In this document: positions 3,001 to 19,078 of the stretch, one piece after another
How positions within the stretch are numbered: the stretch's first letter is position 1
How the letters are laid out: every line of letters begins with the position of its first letter
Source of the DNA: a virus
DNA: 30,973 nucleotides
Reading direction: 5' to 3' (one strand)
IMG/VR virus record: IMGVR_UViG_3300006805_000103
Location: 1-30,973 of that record
The notes under the pieces: model-generated
The model's database searches: none
Told to the model about the DNA's origin: nothing
Seen by the model: the letters and a program-made list of their open reading frames with translations, nothing else
Made by a program: the position numbers and the translations under genes

Positions 3001-6000
3001 GTGAAGCTATCCTGCCTACCCGATCCACTTTGGATCTGTCCAACCAAAACAGCGAGACATTCACTGCCTACGGTTTGGGCCTGGCTCAAGCTCTCGGTAT
3101 CAAGGTGCACAACCAACCGGCCGACGTGTCTGTGACTGAGGTCATGGCCAAGCTGAATGGTGGCCTGGCTCCTGCAGTTGAGATGGTTCGTGAGTGGCTC
3201 TCGATCGTTGATCTGAATCGTCCTGCTGAGTCAGCTTCTGAGCTGACCGCAGACCAAGTCGCCCAGCTCAAGGATGCCTTTGCTGCTGCCGAGGCTGACC
3301 TCTCGATGGTTGGTCTGCACGCCCTTGTCGACTACGCCCGATACCTGGCCAGTGATGATCAATCAGCGTTTCAGACCTCGATCTACTTGGAAGCGGATGG
3401 TGTGACCAACGGTCCCATCAATGCCATGGCTCTGATGAGCATTGGCAACTTCACGCCAGCTTGGGTGGGCAATGTGTCCAAGGGTGGTCTGGCTTTTGGC
3501 CAAGCCACCACGATGGCTGAGATCCGCAAAAGCGACTCGAAGGATCTGTATCAGGCATCTACTGATGCAACTCGTGCACGTCTGTCTGAGCTTCGGGATT
3601 CCCTGAGCCAAGAAGGTACTGAGCAAATGGATCATCTGCTCAACCTGATGTCTCTGTTCAACGCTGATGTGATCTTTGACCCAGATGCTGAATGGGAAAA
3701 GGGTGCCTTGAATTTGAAACGAGGCATTGCCAAGAACCCATTGACCATCACGATCTACGGCTCAGGTCAGTCCGGTATCGCAGGCAAGCTGACCTCTGCT
3801 CTGGTCGATGAGATCTACGCACGCATGAGCACGCTGCTGCAAGCACAGAAGACCAACCCCAACATTTCTGTGGCTGACGCCATGTTCCCTGGTGATCTTG
3901 ATGCTGCTGACAAGCTGGCTCGTTTCAGCAAGTCGATTCAGGCATTGACCACCTTGGTGCCTGTTCGTGAGAAGGGCGTTTTGTTCTTCGATGGAGTCAG
4001 CCAGCCTGCTCGCAAGTTTGTGCCCAAGACTTTCAGTTTCACAGCCAGTGAGCTGGAGACAATGGAAGCCAACATGCTGGAGCTGTTTGTCAAGCCGATG
4101 CGTCAAGGCATTACCGACACGGTTGGTGCCCCCTTGATGGAAGCCGTGGCCACTCTCCGAGATGCTGCACAAGTGCAATCGATCTTCTTGGAAGCGATGT
4201 ACAAGCAACGCATCGACGAGAAGATGACTGAGAAGGAAGCCAACGATCCGACCTGGCGTCGTGGTGACTTCCTGAGCCAAGCTGAGCTGAACAAGATCAT
4301 TGCCGATCTCCGGAGCATTTCTCCTTTGGTTCAGACAGGGGATCAATCCTTCCTCATCACCAGCAAACAGACGCTTGACCTTGAAGGTCGTGATCTGGAG
4401 TTCGGTCGTGCACTGGACAACAGTCTGCGTCCTGACCCAGACATGTTTGGTCCCGGTCAAGCCGGTGTGCGTGCCATCCCGATGCTGACCATTGGTATGG
4501 GCGACGGCATGATGATGCAGCTGTTGGCCCTGCTGGGCTTGGAAGGCACGCTCAAGATCTTCGACGGTATGAACATGCCTCTGGACAAGATTCGTCAGTA
4601 CAGCGAGCAAGCCAATGCTGCTGTTTACGAATCATGGAAGGGCAACCCTCACGCTGAGATGCTGAAGACTTTTAAGACGTTCGTCGGTAAGGTCTCTGAA
4701 GCGACGATCACTCCAGCCATGGTCCCTGCATTGACTCAAACTTTGTTCTCGTCGGCTGAGCGGCGTTCGATGGCCAAGGCCAATGTGGTGCCCAGCAATG
4801 CAATGATCATGGAACGGATCAAGCAACTGCAAGGCAGTTTGGAATGGTCTGCCAAGAGCGTCGATGCACGGCACGCTGCTATCGAGTCTCTGCCCGTGTC
4901 GGTTGACCAAATGGCCGCTGCCGGAGCCCCACATACTAATGGCCGTCCTGCTTCTAGTCGCATGACGGTTGATGAGGTTGTGGCTGCTCTGAATAAGGCT
5001 TACGACGAAGCCATGAACGGGGGCGCAACACCGAAGGCTGTCGCCCCGGCCATTGAGAAGGTGGGCCGTGTTGCTGCTTCTGGCATTCGTGTGTTGTCGC
5101 CTACTGCCATTGAATCCCTGTCCCGGACAGACATGACTGACGCACAGAAGGCCGTGTACAGCGAGATCCGCCGATCCAACGCAGTCCGTGGCTACACGGT
5201 TGTGGTTGGTACTGCTGAGCAAGTCGATGCTTTCATTTCCGAGACGGGCCGTTCTCCTCGCCCATCTCAGGAAGTTCATGGCTGGATTCAGATTGCCGAC
5301 AAGACCATCTACATAATCAACCCATCAACTGAAACTTTGGTCCATGAGTTGGTGCATGCTGCTTCATATGGAGCCATTCTGGCCCACTATCAAGGTAAGA
5401 CAGTTGGTTCTGAAGTGGCTGCTGCTATCGGTCGATTGGAGACCCTGATGGCAGAGTTTCTTGAGACCGATGTCAGCCAGTTCGACCCAGCATTGCGTGC
5501 TGCCTACGAATCGGCTAAGGCTGCGATCTTGTCTGCCAATCTGGAATCGGATCAGTCTATTGCTCAGGCTAAGGCACTGAACGAGTTCATGGCTTGGGGT
5601 CTGACCAACGAGCAACTGACCAAGGACCTGAAGAGCAAGCCTGCTCCGGTCCTGGTGCGTTTGGCCAAAGGCATCGTTGCTGCGATCAAGTCTCTGATCT
5701 GGGGCAATAAGGCTGCACCCAAGGTAGCCGATGACTTCCTCAGCAATCTGCAGTTCAACTCTGGTGTGATTTTCCGCAGCCAGCCCAGCATTGCTGCCGT
5801 GGTTCGCAGCGGAGAGCTTCATCATTCGACCGCCTACGGTAGCTCCAATCGGATGGACAGCATTCGTCAGACGTTTGCTCAGAAGATCGTTGATCTGCTG
5901 AACACTGAGAAGTGGCAACGTGGTGTCAAGATGCGTCAGGTGGAGGTCTCCCAAGCTGTCCAAGAAGCTGTCATGGTGGGCCTGTCCTTCAACGCTCACG

Positions 6001-9000: not shown

Positions 9001-9182
9001 ACCCTGTGCATGCTCTGATGTCGATGACACTGCCTGCCCCGGACTTCTTGGGTACGGTGGGCTCACCCATCAGTGACAACATCTTGGCCAAGTCCCTTGG
9101 TGATACTCTTGGTTCCTCGGTGGGCACTGACATGGCCTTCCGGGCACCGACGCTGAACCCCTGGATGAACATGATCCACTGA
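1..9182 (+). CDS. N4-type virion RNA polymerase (vRNAP), 5'-truncated
   Basis: Giant single-subunit RNA polymerase, packaged in the virion and injected to transcribe early genes. The frame is open to the left edge; the first possible start is GTG at 9, but the true start is probably outside. Residues are counted from that GTG. T7-family motifs appear in order: TxxGR-like SRVGR at 978-982; motif A ADGVTNG with catalytic D1130; motif B R1238-x3-K1242-x7-Y1250-G1251; motif C IFDGM with D1519. Spacing matches my recollection of N4 mini-vRNAP (D559, R666, K670, Y678, D951). About 1540 residues follow motif C, as in the 3500-residue N4 protein, so roughly 440 N-terminal residues are likely missing. 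Residues 225-372 are a Pro/Ala/Val/charged low-complexity linker. HELVH at 1779-1783 with NEF (E1859) suggests a zincin-like domain. The C-terminal region is unassigned; in N4 it is needed for packaging. Confidence 0.9.
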   Translation, partial: IAVASLHPDKGNLAANEQILTHAAQGKLNLSPDQLNTLKASVTLLRARAKMEEKIAASGTRRVMDVVSSQIVAGNDPLRKVAKSAMQHTQEILSAVRGQNSELATARLEDFGKFVQHMQNKVAALNTHFENGNPNADGVQYQQLQPSDRDFKLSTKGMFVNTGKGSSIDLAQSAAIEAEILADVYNGLVETFPELGQPTIAAVPLNAALIGDAETLAQGFRDARKTPEPKKSTSPVEPAVSAVEANVRRMTDAQLNARLEKTTTNDPLFSVLDAEMTRREDAAVKQLKESNDADRNVDGESSAVVPARDVRVAVRDEAVDSTPPAAKPADKGRSEAVPQAVEKGRDSAPAPVAEVRDPVPDAVDASKSATPVDGSFRIDMTSLKKFGGFLIQEAQLFAEGDGSQSPWLTADGKVIGTGQDHISFADAVLPNGAVAYDEFMRATGAIRAAFFKDGDAGFVAMLHTYVGQKLTDAQLQFLARLSESQSKLTIMQGEADGLVNPDYKPTSLAELGYKAPAVADKEANLDQAAEDASRYDDLVDGLLEANAPTITTPLDDLYGENNFARSSFVYPEEATTRLSAEESPIAAVRRALSSETRLTSFLSGSPKRNTLTAEAASAYQRLLTDTLAPVVMAMEQQLNAFLDSNYSKSIQKTMRDIFLNNLEVPQKSGKTLMGSEMNRTARAKVLNLTQLNADGALTYQPQMLEQASLAAMQWLLSSDSFTSVMDESDVAQMTGLSETVLQRNPELIEQLTEGMSVAQAKGSLSIKIRKYMGLKSKSTADTAYTNGIINAMAAELLRAMASAGLIEISAVELTPAEHGVPKNKTFNRIVVKKLDDKDALASFQDAIEVASLVEPEVTNYIGDVTPDVAERQMNNNEVANTKNQKDAMGKEQQTIFLLNLPVISFYASLGKDNLLAMFGTSLDDEDVFNDTHLKSVKSKNNSVTAAFDHLFGVLADVSNVAETAGTALDQTPIRYAYNMSRVGRMQMLGKYGPQASKLVREAILPTRSTLDLSNQNSETFTAYGLGLAQALGIKVHNQPADVSVTEVMAKLNGGLAPAVEMVREWLSIVDLNRPAESASELTADQVAQLKDAFAAAEADLSMVGLHALVDYARYLASDDQSAFQTSIYLEADGVTNGPINAMALMSIGNFTPAWVGNVSKGGLAFGQATTMAEIRKSDSKDLYQASTDATRARLSELRDSLSQEGTEQMDHLLNLMSLFNADVIFDPDAEWEKGALNLKRGIAKNPLTITIYGSGQSGIAGKLTSALVDEIYARMSTLLQAQKTNPNISVADAMFPGDLDAADKLARFSKSIQALTTLVPVREKGVLFFDGVSQPARKFVPKTFSFTASELETMEANMLELFVKPMRQGITDTVGAPLMEAVATLRDAAQVQSIFLEAMYKQRIDEKMTEKEANDPTWRRGDFLSQAELNKIIADLRSISPLVQTGDQSFLITSKQTLDLEGRDLEFGRALDNSLRPDPDMFGPGQAGVRAIPMLTIGMGDGMMMQLLALLGLEGTLKIFDGMNMPLDKIRQYSEQANAAVYESWKGNPHAEMLKTFKTFVGKVSEATITPAMVPALTQTLFSSAERRSMAKANVVPSNAMIMERIKQLQGSLEWSAKSVDARHAAIESLPVSVDQMAAAGAPHTNGRPASSRMTVDEVVAALNKAYDEAMNGGATPKAVAPAIEKVGRVAASGIRVLSPTAIESLSRTDMTDAQKAVYSEIRRSNAVRGYTVVVGTAEQVDAFISETGRSPRPSQEVHGWIQIADKTIYIINPSTETLVHELVHAASYGAILAHYQGKTVGSEVAAAIGRLETLMAEFLETDVSQFDPALRAAYESAKAAILSANLESDQSIAQAKALNEFMAWGLTNEQLTKDLKSKPAPVLVRLAKGIVAAIKSLIWGNKAAPKVADDFLSNLQFNSGVIFRSQPSIAAVVRSGELHHSTAYGSSNRMDSIRQTFAQKIVDLLNTEKWQRGVKMRQVEVSQAVQEAVMVGLSFNAHGFQMNQQEGTTFRMVLAALATEADIDANSMDRAQELYTHVAKTLMVEDFMADPSSLDPQMRYDAQEKYSVIMGQYLTTKDAKGRSSLLPAFLALATVNDEFRAVLAKMALPKFAKNMDGTLDSILSNAGGTVMDSLSRRLAGDAKSKSVRDSVDNLLEHIRKEAQNEQTFLDQYASVSGGIVDRGNEIVTNGLQAASDALLARADAAEKNASNALVKGGARLAKLVALVASEKNGAIISEGILTATNAKKMWEPLRTFISDMVGRTASNANVYDMIKAVRSAVQQTRQQFRDGVPQIINSKFKKKVTPQQWTAMFNTLAKTDLAVLRGSMQHADIAALISDQAARDAEINKLEAQIQTSNPRHWPILSAKMKQLAVFMNTGVPGVNLLRNAEAIGRLLGEQKANNYSLPNAATKAAIDKLVSLYALDTLPEATRATVSSLVQSEADGINFVVDYLVGQRKEEVRKATGTAMLNAYKGYIPSEQEAGLSMQIASDAEFANLRELGYVRVAPYKGSSVELGQGLKSYYFAPLSGRAVFNQGIMQNVRHTAGGVDATSGFTVGMTAGRVTSKQQIARILDRMSQEKSTVETFMPVYNSAGEVVALERSVDPKITAKLNKSTDLAHMIGVWRGRQVEEATSQIYNEQLIDKLKAMYDADMKESSSNKAQYVNLLDSKTAKENPVIADAVSLFTNETLDYIREKFGEDFWVRRDMVRDAVGERSASIGDLWNGVSNMSKDNRDQLRKALVGALGIDAFRKVVTAERLLQNFMADMRTLIVVKSVIVPAANFVSNIYQLISRGVPILYIAKTMPAKLAEIDSYAKTQLRQIEAEAELRAATGNAVAERKLKTEIQSIKDAHKRMSIWPLIEAGEFSSIADVGMQAEDLELTSGKLASYVERLVDKLPESVKTAGRYAMITKDTALYRGLQKSVQYSDFVAKAVLFDDLTKRQKKTKAEALARITEEFVNYDRLPGRFRSYLENSGLLWFYNFKIRSTKVALSTIRNNPVHALMSMTLPAPDFLGTVGSPISDNILAKSLGDTLGSSVGTDMAFRAPTLNPWMNMIH
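877..1119 (+). CDS. Candidate overprinted gene inside the vRNAP linker (80 aa)
   Basis: This frame is shifted by +1 relative to vRNAP and encodes 80 residues. An AAGGAG Shine-Dalgarno at 864-869 lies 7 bases before ATG 877; an alternative ATG is at 874. The product looks like a folded protein: four Trp, three Tyr, a Gln/Leu-rich central helix-like stretch, then LTKDEAKQFLKLW and a Pro/Trp/Cys tail ending in ANRLPL. In the same stretch the vRNAP frame is Pro/Ala/Val/Asp/Lys low-complexity, with repeated GTA, CGA and CGG codons that are less usual elsewhere in that gene. That is what is expected if the second frame is the constrained one. I do not recognise the product. Alternatives are a captured gene fragment now used only as linker, or chance. 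The function is unknown. Confidence 0.5.
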   Translation: MQTEMSMVSQVPWYLHEMYGWQFGMKQSIQLLQQQSLLTKDEAKQFLKLWKKGGTAPPHLWPKCEILYLTQLMPANRLPL

Positions 9183-9184
9183 CC

Positions 9185-9218
9185 AAAAAGAAAGCCCCTC
9201 ATGGGGCTTTCTTGTTTT
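9185..9218. terminator. Bidirectional intrinsic terminator between convergent genes
   Basis: An 11-bp stem, AAGAAAGCCCC (9188-9198) with GGGGCTTTCTT (9203-9213), has a TCAT loop. It has T-rich sequence on the + side and an A-run on the left giving U residues on the - side. It ends vRNAP transcription and also overlaps the stop of the convergent 62-residue gene. Confidence 0.9.
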
Positions 9219-16145: not shown

Positions 16146-16880
16146 TCAGCCCATTGCTTTGATAACACATCGTCGGATCAGTTCCTCGGATGCGTCGATT
16201 GGAATCCCGATTTCCTCGCACCACGTTGGCCAGAAAATGGAGAGTTCACCTCCAAGTTTGACTTCGTCATGCTGGATGTCGGGATGGTCCTGCCACTGCA
16301 CAGCCTTCACGAGGTGCTCATTGGTGTACATGACTGCGTTGATGTCATCTCGGACAAGCATGTACTGGGCATCGTGAATGTGGGCACATGGCCGGATGTT
16401 GAGACGGTGTTCGGATTTGCGAACACCATCCATAAATTCTGCACTGGCTCGGCTATTCAGTAGACACCAAGATTGACCAAGAGCGTTGCCGGCCGTTCGG
16501 CCTTCTGCCTCAGCTTCATAAGGTGTCTTGCTGTTGCCACGGATCACCTGTTTCAGTAGTGGTGTGCGGAGACGCAAACCAAATGCTGCGGTGATGTAGC
16601 CATCCTTTGAAGCCTGATCCAGTTTGGCTTGCACCCAGGCATCACTCACCTTGTAGAGTTCGTGGTACCGAGCCTCCACCATCAATGCCTTTTCTTTGGA
16701 GAAGCCGCAATTCTTGATGAGGGTGATGTACGTGCCCTGGTAGGTCAGTGCAAAGGTTGGTGCCTTGCTGTCTTGTCGATGGGGCTTGTAGAGGTCCTGG
16801 ATCGAATTGATCTCAGCGACGTTGAAATCCCGAGGCGGGATCTCCTCTATCTTGGCTCCAGGCTTGAGTTGAATTTGCAT
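16146..16880 (-). CDS. DNA polymerase, C-terminal half (motifs B and C), 244 aa
   Basis: This carries the fingers and the second half of the palm of a family A (Pol I type) replicative polymerase like N4 gp39. Motif B is R35-x3-K39...TYQGT (Y47, G49), which binds the incoming dNTP. Motif C is HIHD, with D170 as second catalytic Asp. ATG 16880 has GGAG 6 bases upstream. An alternative ATG at 16931 overlaps the stop of the N-terminal half by ATGA and would read through the terminator stem. Alone this half lacks motif A and the exonuclease, so it must pair with the 716-residue product next door. The first 20 or so residues (MQIQLKPGAKIEEIPPRDF) are not polymerase core. Confidence 0.9.
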   Translation of the reverse strand: MQIQLKPGAKIEEIPPRDFNVAEINSIQDLYKPHRQDSKAPTFALTYQGTYITLIKNCGFSKEKALMVEARYHELYKVSDAWVQAKLDQASKDGYITAAFGLRLRTPLLKQVIRGNSKTPYEAEAEGRTAGNALGQSWCLLNSRASAEFMDGVRKSEHRLNIRPCAHIHDAQYMLVRDDINAVMYTNEHLVKAVQWQDHPDIQHDEVKLGGELSIFWPTWCEEIGIPIDASEELIRRCVIKAMG

Positions 16881-16892
16881 GGTTGCTCCAAT

Positions 16893-16921
16893 AAAAAGCC
16901 GCCCACATTTCTGTAGGCGGC
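16893..16921 (-). terminator. Intrinsic terminator between the two DNA polymerase halves
   Basis: On the - strand, GCCGCCTACA, GAAA loop, TGTGGGCGGC is followed by TTTTTATT: 10 bp including one G-U pair and a GNRA tetraloop. It lies between the stop of the N-terminal half and the Shine-Dalgarno of the C-terminal half. Confidence 0.85.
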
Positions 16922-16927
16922 CCCCTG

Positions 16928-19078
16928 TCATGAGGTGAAGTGGTCTTCCACATTCACGACAGTACCATCTGGTAGGGCGACAGTATCCCCTTGCACCAGA
17001 TAGATTACTTCGTCACCTTGGGTGACACGAAAAGCTCTCACACCTTCCACTTGTCGGATCAATGGCATCTCTGAACCAAAGTAGGCATAAGCACGCAGAC
17101 TGTGGCCGTCGTAGCCGTCGGTGTAAACCTTCAGCTTGTTCGGGTCCTTTGTCGTCAAGGCACTGATGCGGTCTTCGAGAGATGCGAAGTCCAAACCACA
17201 AAACAACCATCCAGGTGGTGCTTGGAAGCAGCTCTTGATGAGCTTGCCCAAATGGAGTTTGCCCTTCTTGATGAACTTGCCGGCTCCCATGGATTCCAGC
17301 AGCACCAGCACAGCAGCCACCAATGCGACTTCCACGTTGGCAGGGAGGTTCTGCAGGTTGGGCTCGCTTGAGCTGAGCCGACCAGACAAAGTTCCACCAA
17401 GGTTGAAGTTGCCGAACAGGTAGTGCCAGCCGTCAGGTCCGAGAGCAGCATTCTTCATCGCTGGGATGAACGATGTGAGGATCTTGTTCACGGCACCATA
17501 GTCGAGCATGGCTGCAAGGAACTCTCTCACCTCGGGAGTCTTGGCGTGATTGACCAAGGCTTCCAAAGTGTCACGATCAACCGAGGGTTGCTTGCTGTCT
17601 GTCAGCCCGATGACTGGCATCTCCAAGATGTCAAACAGGATCTCTTGAAGCTGTGGCCCAGAGTTGGGATTGAAAGTGATTTCCTTTCGGATCGCTTCAG
17701 AAGTCTGGCTTGCTGCCAGCATCTCCTGAACCGTCAACCGCTTCTTCTTCCATTCCTGGTTCTTCACCTCGGTGAATCGCTCAAGGCGGGTGTACTCGTA
17801 CTCCTGGATCAGCTTGCATTGGCGGATCGTATTCAGAGCATGGTCGTAAACCACGGTCAGAATGTTCTCTACCTTCAGGACTTGCTGCATGTTCAATGGC
17901 ATGCCAGTCAACTGCATCTGGATGATGTCAGTCGTCGCCGGCTTGAACAGACTTTGGTACACGTTCAGCTGTTGATCGTCGACCATTGTTTGGTAGTGCT
18001 TTTCGTGCACATACCAAGTGGAGAGGGCGTCGACCAAGTTGTACCGCAAGAGCTTTGGCAAAGGGATCTTCGTGATGTCCTTGATGTCATCGTCGTTCAT
18101 CGCGTAGTTGCCTGAATACTCCTGAGACTGATCCTTGAGGCCCAGTTTGTTGCCGGCACAGCTGTTGGTGGCCAGGTAGGTGATCAGCTTGGTGTCGTCC
18201 CAGCATCGCAGCATGACATCAATGCCTTCGAGCAAGCCTTCTGTGTCCAGCAGGTCTTTCATGTAGAGCTGATAGATCAACACGTACACGTCGAAGCTGA
18301 TGTTGTGCCAGATCATCTTCTTCAAATAACGATTGAAGAAGTTCTTCAGCAATGCACGCACAGGACCATTGGGCACATTGCGCCCATACGGTGCTTCAGT
18401 GGCACCATCGATCGGCTCGTAGTCCACGGCAAAGGCAATGCCTTCGTGTTTGTTCCAGGCCAATGCAATGCTACCAATGCCGGCCTTGTGATGCTTCAGA
18501 TCGAAGGCTTCAATGTCAGCAGTGAAGTCCACATTCATGGCCAGCAGCTTTTCCAAAGCAGCAGCGATTTCAGTTGGTCCGGATGGGTACTCTTCGTACT
18601 TGATGATGTCTGTGCCCGGTGCTTGGTAGCTGCCGGCGACGTGATCAAGCAGAGCATTTATGCCCTGCTTGATCTTTGCACGAACCTTTTCAGGATCGTA
18701 GAACACAGCCCGGTAGCTCGGGACGTAGACCACTTTCCATGGACCGAACACACAGTCCAACATGTAGCCCAGGTTTGCCTCAGTCTTGGCAGACTTTGTC
18801 AGCACCTTGAAATAGTCGCTGTCAGCAACGATCAGGTACTTGGCCTGGCTGTCTTGGAGCACAGGCAACAACTCGCTTTTGATGAATTGCTTCATCTCCT
18901 CGGCTGGCGTCTTCTTCTTGGTCTGGGAGTAGTGCAGGTCACAGACGAGCACGTCATCTTCTGGGATACCAAACGGAGTGAGATATTCCTTTTGGATCTC
19001 ATCCTTACGGATGGTTGGGACCAGAAACACCAGTGGGTAGGTGACCAGATCCTGTTGTGAGTAGAACAGCTGTCTCAT
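16928..19078 (-). CDS. DNA polymerase, N-terminal half (exonuclease and motif A), 716 aa
   Basis: ATG 19078 has AGGAG 6 bases upstream. Residues 1 to about 170 are an N-terminal extension. The 3'-5' proofreading exonuclease follows: Exo I DIE (D188, E190), Exo II HNISFD (N259, D263), Exo III YNLVD (Y346, D350). The thumb/palm contains SGRLSSSEPNLQNLP and motif A GLDFASLEDRIS with catalytic D630. The frame then ends after about 45 residues of non-core sequence (ending DHFTS), before motifs B and C, which are in the next gene. N4 gp39 is a single protein of about 870 residues; here the total is about 960 in two pieces. The two products presumably assemble into one active enzyme. Confidence 0.92.
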   Translation of the reverse strand: MRQLFYSQQDLVTYPLVFLVPTIRKDEIQKEYLTPFGIPEDDVLVCDLHYSQTKKKTPAEEMKQFIKSELLPVLQDSQAKYLIVADSDYFKVLTKSAKTEANLGYMLDCVFGPWKVVYVPSYRAVFYDPEKVRAKIKQGINALLDHVAGSYQAPGTDIIKYEEYPSGPTEIAAALEKLLAMNVDFTADIEAFDLKHHKAGIGSIALAWNKHEGIAFAVDYEPIDGATEAPYGRNVPNGPVRALLKNFFNRYLKKMIWHNISFDVYVLIYQLYMKDLLDTEGLLEGIDVMLRCWDDTKLITYLATNSCAGNKLGLKDQSQEYSGNYAMNDDDIKDITKIPLPKLLRYNLVDALSTWYVHEKHYQTMVDDQQLNVYQSLFKPATTDIIQMQLTGMPLNMQQVLKVENILTVVYDHALNTIRQCKLIQEYEYTRLERFTEVKNQEWKKKRLTVQEMLAASQTSEAIRKEITFNPNSGPQLQEILFDILEMPVIGLTDSKQPSVDRDTLEALVNHAKTPEVREFLAAMLDYGAVNKILTSFIPAMKNAALGPDGWHYLFGNFNLGGTLSGRLSSSEPNLQNLPANVEVALVAAVLVLLESMGAGKFIKKGKLHLGKLIKSCFQAPPGWLFCGLDFASLEDRISALTTKDPNKLKVYTDGYDGHSLRAYAYFGSEMPLIRQVEGVRAFRVTQGDEVIYLVQGDTVALPDGTVVNVEDHFTS

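Follow-up and report, generated by a model that had tools for sequence, protein, structure and literature searches.

Two separately started genes encode the halves of an N4-type phage DNA polymerase, a split that very likely originated from a homing endonuclease cassette

The viral DNA analyzed here (the window, 30,973 nucleotides) carries the family A DNA polymerase of an N4-like phage in two adjacent genes, divided between motifs A and B. Each half ends at the junction in a short non-core tail, and the best reading of the sequence is that the window is a derivative of a tail-endonuclease-tail cassette from which the endonuclease gene would have been lost. The features on which this reading rests are as follows.

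16928..19078, minus strand: ORF1, N-terminal half of an N4-type family A DNA polymerase, 716 aa, ATG at 19078, stop TGA at 16930-16928; holds the 3'-5' exonuclease, the thumb and motif A (D630)
17162..17197, minus strand: motif A (GLDFASLEDRIS) in ORF1
17057..17119, minus strand: core segment between motif A and the split (DGYDGHSLRAYAYFGSEMPLI) in ORF1; the second split site, used by other Schitoviridae (KVY^TDGYDG), is immediately upstream of it
16931..17056, minus strand: N-tail, the 42 non-core residues of ORF1 (RQVEGVRAFRVTQGDEVIYLVQGDTVALPDGTVVNVEDHFTS), homologous to the N-tails of endonuclease-bearing splits
16881..16927, minus strand: intercistronic spacer, 47 nt, with a hairpin and a GGAG Shine-Dalgarno (SD); contig L061 has an HNH homing endonuclease gene at the equivalent position
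16898..16921, minus strand: hairpin GCCGCCTACA-GAAA-TGTGGGCGGC, 10 bp with a GAAA loop, followed by TTTTTATT (16897-16890) with T5; terminator-like
16146..16880, minus strand: ORF2, C-terminal polymerase half, 244 aa plus stop, ATG at 16880
16812..16880, minus strand: C-tail, the first 23 residues of ORF2 (MQIQLKPGAKIEEIPPRDFNVAE), non-core
16740-16778, minus strand: motif B (RQDSKAPTFALTY) in ORF2
16362-16382, minus strand: motif C (HIHDAQY) in ORF2

Judged by domain content and gene context, ORF1 and ORF2 together are one Schitoviridae (N4-like) family A polymerase. The Pfam profile DNA_pol_A (PF00476) is cut at position 199/200, with ORF1 covering 19-199 and ORF2 covering 200-335 (the ORF2 score of 33.7 bits lies just below the curated cut-off of 34.3), two phage polymerase families (phrog_17 and phrog_2573) match across the halves, and identity to the N4 polymerase is 57% and 72% for the two halves. 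The neighborhood is N4-like, with genes for a virion RNA polymerase, SSB, primase, exonuclease and helicase. No second DNA_pol_A match was found in the window record, nor a second family A polymerase in the 75-kb near-identical record L003, which has the same two halves. The original prediction, a family A N4-type polymerase split so that D630 lies in the first gene and motifs B and C in the second, is borne out, as are the 10-bp GNRA-loop hairpin with U5 between the genes and the second gene's own GGAG-ATG (within TTGGAGCAACCATG); the extra residues, put at about 45 and about 20, measure 42 and 23. The ORF2 frame is also open upstream, through the hairpin, to an ATG lying on the ORF1 stop (ATGA overlap, 16931-16928). 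Since this upstream start is not conserved in the related contig L002, ORF2 more probably begins at the SD-ATG at 16880.

The same split position, with conserved tails, is found in the contigs L002 and L003, which belong to two data sets and have an identical stem-loop and nearly identical tails, and in four more divergent contigs (L005, L049, L173 and L174) with recognizable tails and differing spacers, from 27 nt (L005) to 634 nt (L174). An assembly or sequencing error, which the original prediction named as its possible undoing, might be suspected from the different frames of the window halves and from a one-base T-run difference against L002. However, L002 also has the stop, the other contigs have junctions with conserved tails and separate starts, and none of these relatives bears a sequencing-error signature; error as a general explanation is refuted by the L002 stop and the independent split contigs, and its probability is negligible. 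That the polymerase is truly split into two separately started genes is, in our view, beyond reasonable doubt. An HNH endonuclease gene is absent from the junction in the window, L002, L005, L049, L173 and L174. In L174 (1457-2090) an extra 132-aa ORF, not recognized as an endonuclease, lies between the halves after the hairpin, and in L005 (1496-2179) and L049 (4683-6116) a collagen-like repeat-rich ORF stands directly 3' of the second half, a gene order that differs from that of the window. A rough tree of the polymerase core interleaves split and intact genes, which is consistent with repeated gain and loss; only this interleaving was used, the rows for L081, L017 and L090 having been poorly extracted.

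The original prediction had left it to an alignment with intact N4-like polymerases whether the flanking residues are a known insertion; they look like tails of a cassette type, and the split very likely traces to an endonuclease insertion. In that alignment the tails fall in the loop between AYFGxxMP and INSI, which spans about 8-10 residues in intact N4-type polymerases. At exactly the window's split site, homologous tails enclose an HNH endonuclease gene in L061 (HNH_3 match, E=5e-10), and the N-tail of this contig matches a tail model built without L061 at E=1.6e-12. The polymerase of L061 (2200-4660) seems to consist of three pieces, and two distinct HNH endonuclease genes are present, the first within motif A, the second at the window's site; the last piece has a frameshift at a C-run near 4022 that may be a sequencing error.

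A second split site lies about 18 residues upstream (KVY^TDGYDG) and is used in Pylas, Pollock, VEc25, AlfredRasser, others and about 10 metagenomic contigs. These loci carry a related HNH endonuclease between N- and C-tails of their own; the endonucleases of Pylas and L061 are 56% identical over nearly their whole length. VEc25 and N4 form a before/after pair at this site: flanks that are 97.6 and 98.2% identical enclose 702 bp in VEc25 and 7 bp in N4, and the 702-bp insert consists of N-tail, endonuclease gene and C-tail in overlapping reading frames. With flanks so nearly identical, both tails must have arrived together with the endonuclease at the upstream site. There the evidence for tails arriving with the element is direct; at the window site it consists of N-tail homology and L061. 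The N-tails of the two sites are collinear across 40 columns, and a profile comparison between them scores 25.7, whereas the best of 300 column shuffles reaches 17.1; for the C-tails, homology between the two sites is not significant (106 of 300 shuffles score as well).

The tails themselves look like protein. Between the window and L002 their pN/pS is 0.27 (N-tail) and 0.14 (C-tail), values that come from few sites, and at the upstream split site it ranges from 0.06 to 0.52, so that purifying selection supports the view, taken from sequence comparison, that the tails are almost certainly translated. The same tails were found in no other split gene among 77 endonuclease-bearing viral loci, in none of the ZC08 interrupted genes, in no other split gene when the upstream-site (site-II) N-tail was run by tblastn on cultured phage records, and in no other gene of the genome collection. 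A tail match in HenuGS (E=3) was examined and not accepted as real.

Two orders of events are conceivable. The 47-nt spacer shows no endonuclease remnant, so in the window lineage the gene might have been split before an endonuclease arrived, or without one. The gene might have been split by insertion of a hairpin-bearing spacer, with endonucleases invading later, an order that has been raised for phage 25 versus 44RR (PMC2988022). The same order of stop, hairpin, SD and ATG is seen at the untranslated spacer of 44RR gene 43, and a strong hairpin stands at every endonuclease-less junction examined. A bare spacer would not, however, bring tails, whereas the N-tails of the endonuclease-less junctions are homologous to those of the proven cassette, and L061 has its endonuclease at exactly the window's site; we regard the spacer-first order as unlikely. 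It is highly probable that the window split originated from an endonuclease cassette, and the window probably descends from an endonuclease-bearing locus, without being an endonuclease-bearing member itself.

If the gene was broken by such a cassette, the question arises whether its product is rejoined by splicing. The tails could be an active or decayed split intein, with the halves joined now or formerly by protein trans-splicing as in fractured genes, where the two halves likewise have an endonuclease between them in relatives; a split PolB with a putative split intein and HNH has been described in MIJ3. Inteins are frequent in the weak Foldseek list for a structural model of the isolated tails (9hth, 6bs8, 6rix, 4o1r; prob up to about 0.6, E 0.5-0.9), but none of these matches is significant. 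Intein splicing uses an N-terminal nucleophile, a C-terminal His-Asn and a +1 Cys/Ser/Thr. The N-tail start has no conserved Cys/Ser/Ala nucleophile, the C-tail end has neither His-Asn nor +1 Cys/Ser/Thr, and the two tails together (about 65 residues) are below the size of a Hint domain; searches of Pfam, NCBIfam and PDB sequences gave no significant intein or Hint match to them. A split intein is thus quite unlikely. Still more doubtful is a self-splicing intron that encodes the endonuclease, of which the window would be a degenerate form. The Pollock announcement does term the interruption intron-encoded, and the Pylas polymerase is annotated as a join, but neither the window nor six endonuclease-bearing loci gave an Rfam intron match at the gathering threshold, the insert sequence next to each half is conserved as protein in that half's frame, and the window halves each have their own stop and start around a spacer of just 47 nt. 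Since neither intron nor intein was found, splicing of either kind is unlikely.

We propose instead that the cassette which broke the gene in the fingers, between motifs A and B, had an HNH homing endonuclease gene between coding segments for the N-tail and the C-tail, and that the endonuclease gene was later lost in the window lineage, leaving a short hairpin-bearing spacer. The two halves would be translated separately from a common message and, once folded together, would act as a single enzyme. At the junction the tails may make up a small clip, rich in beta strands, on the fingers domain, aiding association without protein or RNA splicing. This overall explanation (cassette split, endonuclease loss and reassembly of separately made halves through their tails) we hold to be likely; a role of the tails in reassembly, taken by itself, is somewhat more probable than not. 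A joined model of L002 has a family A fold (pLDDT 86) whose best PDB matches are phage G20c Pol I and Klenow-type enzymes, with strands in both tails (pLDDT about 75) and a disordered stretch for the untranslated spacer, and the smaller isolated tail model (from L005) shows the same strands at low confidence (pLDDT 59 overall); both models join the tails artificially in one chain, the TGA stop being read as Trp. A broader idea is that tag, endonuclease and tag form one recurring mobile unit that carries its own association tags and, with neither intron nor intein, can break essential genes at further positions; the tags would stay essential after endonuclease loss, locking the gene split, and the hairpin would be repeatedly selected. 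We give this idea slightly less than an even chance.

Known split systems offer instructive comparisons. In the Schitoviridae Pollock, VEc25, AlfredRasser, SP5M and Pylas, the same gene is split between motifs A and B, with a homologous N-tail and a related HNH family. These phages are split about 18 residues upstream, keep the endonuclease, have overlapping ORFs and mostly lack a strong hairpin, whereas the window has the other site, no endonuclease and a hairpin spacer. The NrdA-a/MobE/NrdA-b locus of Aeh1 is likewise an essential replication enzyme split by an HNH endonuclease, with non-core tails on both halves and no intron or intein; its activity reportedly depends on the tails. Both enzyme and endonuclease differ from those considered here, and the Aeh1 NrdA tails have no convincing sequence similarity to window-type tails. 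The reassembled Aeh1 enzyme is active (PMC2988022), and the nrdA-a/mobE junction also has a hairpin; a paper cited in PMC2988022 deals with a hairpin that sequesters the mobE ribosome binding site. By analogy, the window may work like an Aeh1 NrdA-type locus, its tails reassembling the enzyme. The replicative polymerase of Aeromonas phages 44RR2.8t and 25 also occupies two adjacent genes (gp43A/gp43B), and the phage 25 halves co-purify and are active (PMC2988022). In 44RR2.8t the spacer of genes 43 and 43B (L182:2173-2221) has an 8-bp hairpin directly after the first stop, a layout like that of the window; gp43A/gp43B is, however, a family B polymerase, and its tails show no obvious relationship on inspection by eye. 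Split inteins in fractured genes share the arrangement of halves and endonuclease; the window differs from them in having no splicing residues, tails that are too short and no significant intein match.

The junction hairpin deserves separate consideration. The junction folds at -26.2 kcal/mol (z -3.06), and a custom scan lists its hairpin among 10 terminator-like sites across 31 kb, although it is absent from the list of a generic terminator scan. Its 24-nt stem-loop is identical in the window and L002 despite differences at 34-43% of flanking and core synonymous sites, and so it looks constrained. A strong hairpin occurs at or just after the ORF1 stop in all five independent endonuclease-less junctions (window/L002, L005, L049, L173 and L174; z about -3.1 to -5.3), whereas endonuclease-bearing junctions mostly have none (exceptions are L023, L026, L046 and L083, with z below -3). 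No relative of the window's hairpin-bearing type turned up among the cultured phage records searched. The hairpins of L173 and L174 share the same loop, and their stems differ at two base pairs, one being swapped (C-G/G-C) and the other changed from C-G to U-G. In the window a G+C-rich 10-bp stem is followed by T5, as in an intrinsic terminator, and termination with partial read-through is possible there; from this the original prediction derived different amounts of the two subunits. The hairpin recurs at every endonuclease-less junction, but a U-run follows it in the window, L002, L005 and L174 and not in L049 or L173, so that the constant feature of the junction is a hairpin and not a terminator, and unequal subunit amounts are not established. 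We are somewhat doubtful that the hairpin lowers ORF2 expression through termination. It may attenuate ORF2, stabilize or process the message, or separate two translation events, and the phage's own RNA polymerases may not obey a terminator-like hairpin. Other strong terminator-like hairpins of the window lie at 21009-20984 (minus strand), 9441-9418 (minus strand) and 9188-9213 (both strands), the last just after the virion RNA polymerase gene, which ends at 9182.

A hairpin between the halves of one protein also recalls recoding, of which the hairpin-assisted bypass in T4 gene 60 is an example. In L002 and L005 both halves share a reading frame, interrupted by a single TGA, and stop readthrough, or bypass across the hairpin gap, might give some full-length enzyme. 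But in the window, L049 and L173 the two frames differ, the gap varies between 27 nt (L005) and 634 nt (L174, where it includes another ORF), and an ORF2 SD-ATG is present in the window, L002, L005 and L049. Recoding is therefore very improbable.

The original prediction considered a split N4-type family A polymerase unusual. This did not hold: about 19 cultured phage records have a closely related HNH endonuclease inside this polymerase gene, the Pollock paper mentions the interruption, and endonuclease-split N4-type polymerases are already in GenBank. Functional split phage enzymes have also been tied to endonuclease insertion before, for Aeh1 NrdA and phage 25 gp43 (PMC2988022). In the open-access collection of papers that was searched we found nothing published on the second split site, on descendants that lack the endonuclease, on N-tail homology across sites or on junction hairpins in N4-like phages. 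The Aeh1 work did not settle whether such assembly tails arise by chance in a single insertion or come with the mobile element. Homologous N-tails at two sites of one essential gene, the N4/VEc25 pair and descendants after endonuclease loss all bear on this question, which is testable in cultured E. coli phages. The polymerase case suggests one route to multi-subunit replication enzymes, the tails may offer short natural association tags, and the endonuclease-bearing relatives illustrate how a virus can survive when one of its essential genes is broken by a selfish one. Several Schitoviridae polymerase annotations may be misleading; in Klebsiella phage Pylas (L026:2186-5466) the annotated spliced join runs around the HNH gene, with no detectable intron RNA. 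Finally, N4-type polymerase genes are also interrupted elsewhere, around N4 residues 353 and 530-554, in L068 (1346-2077) and L074 (1480-3530), where other ORFs lie between the parts.
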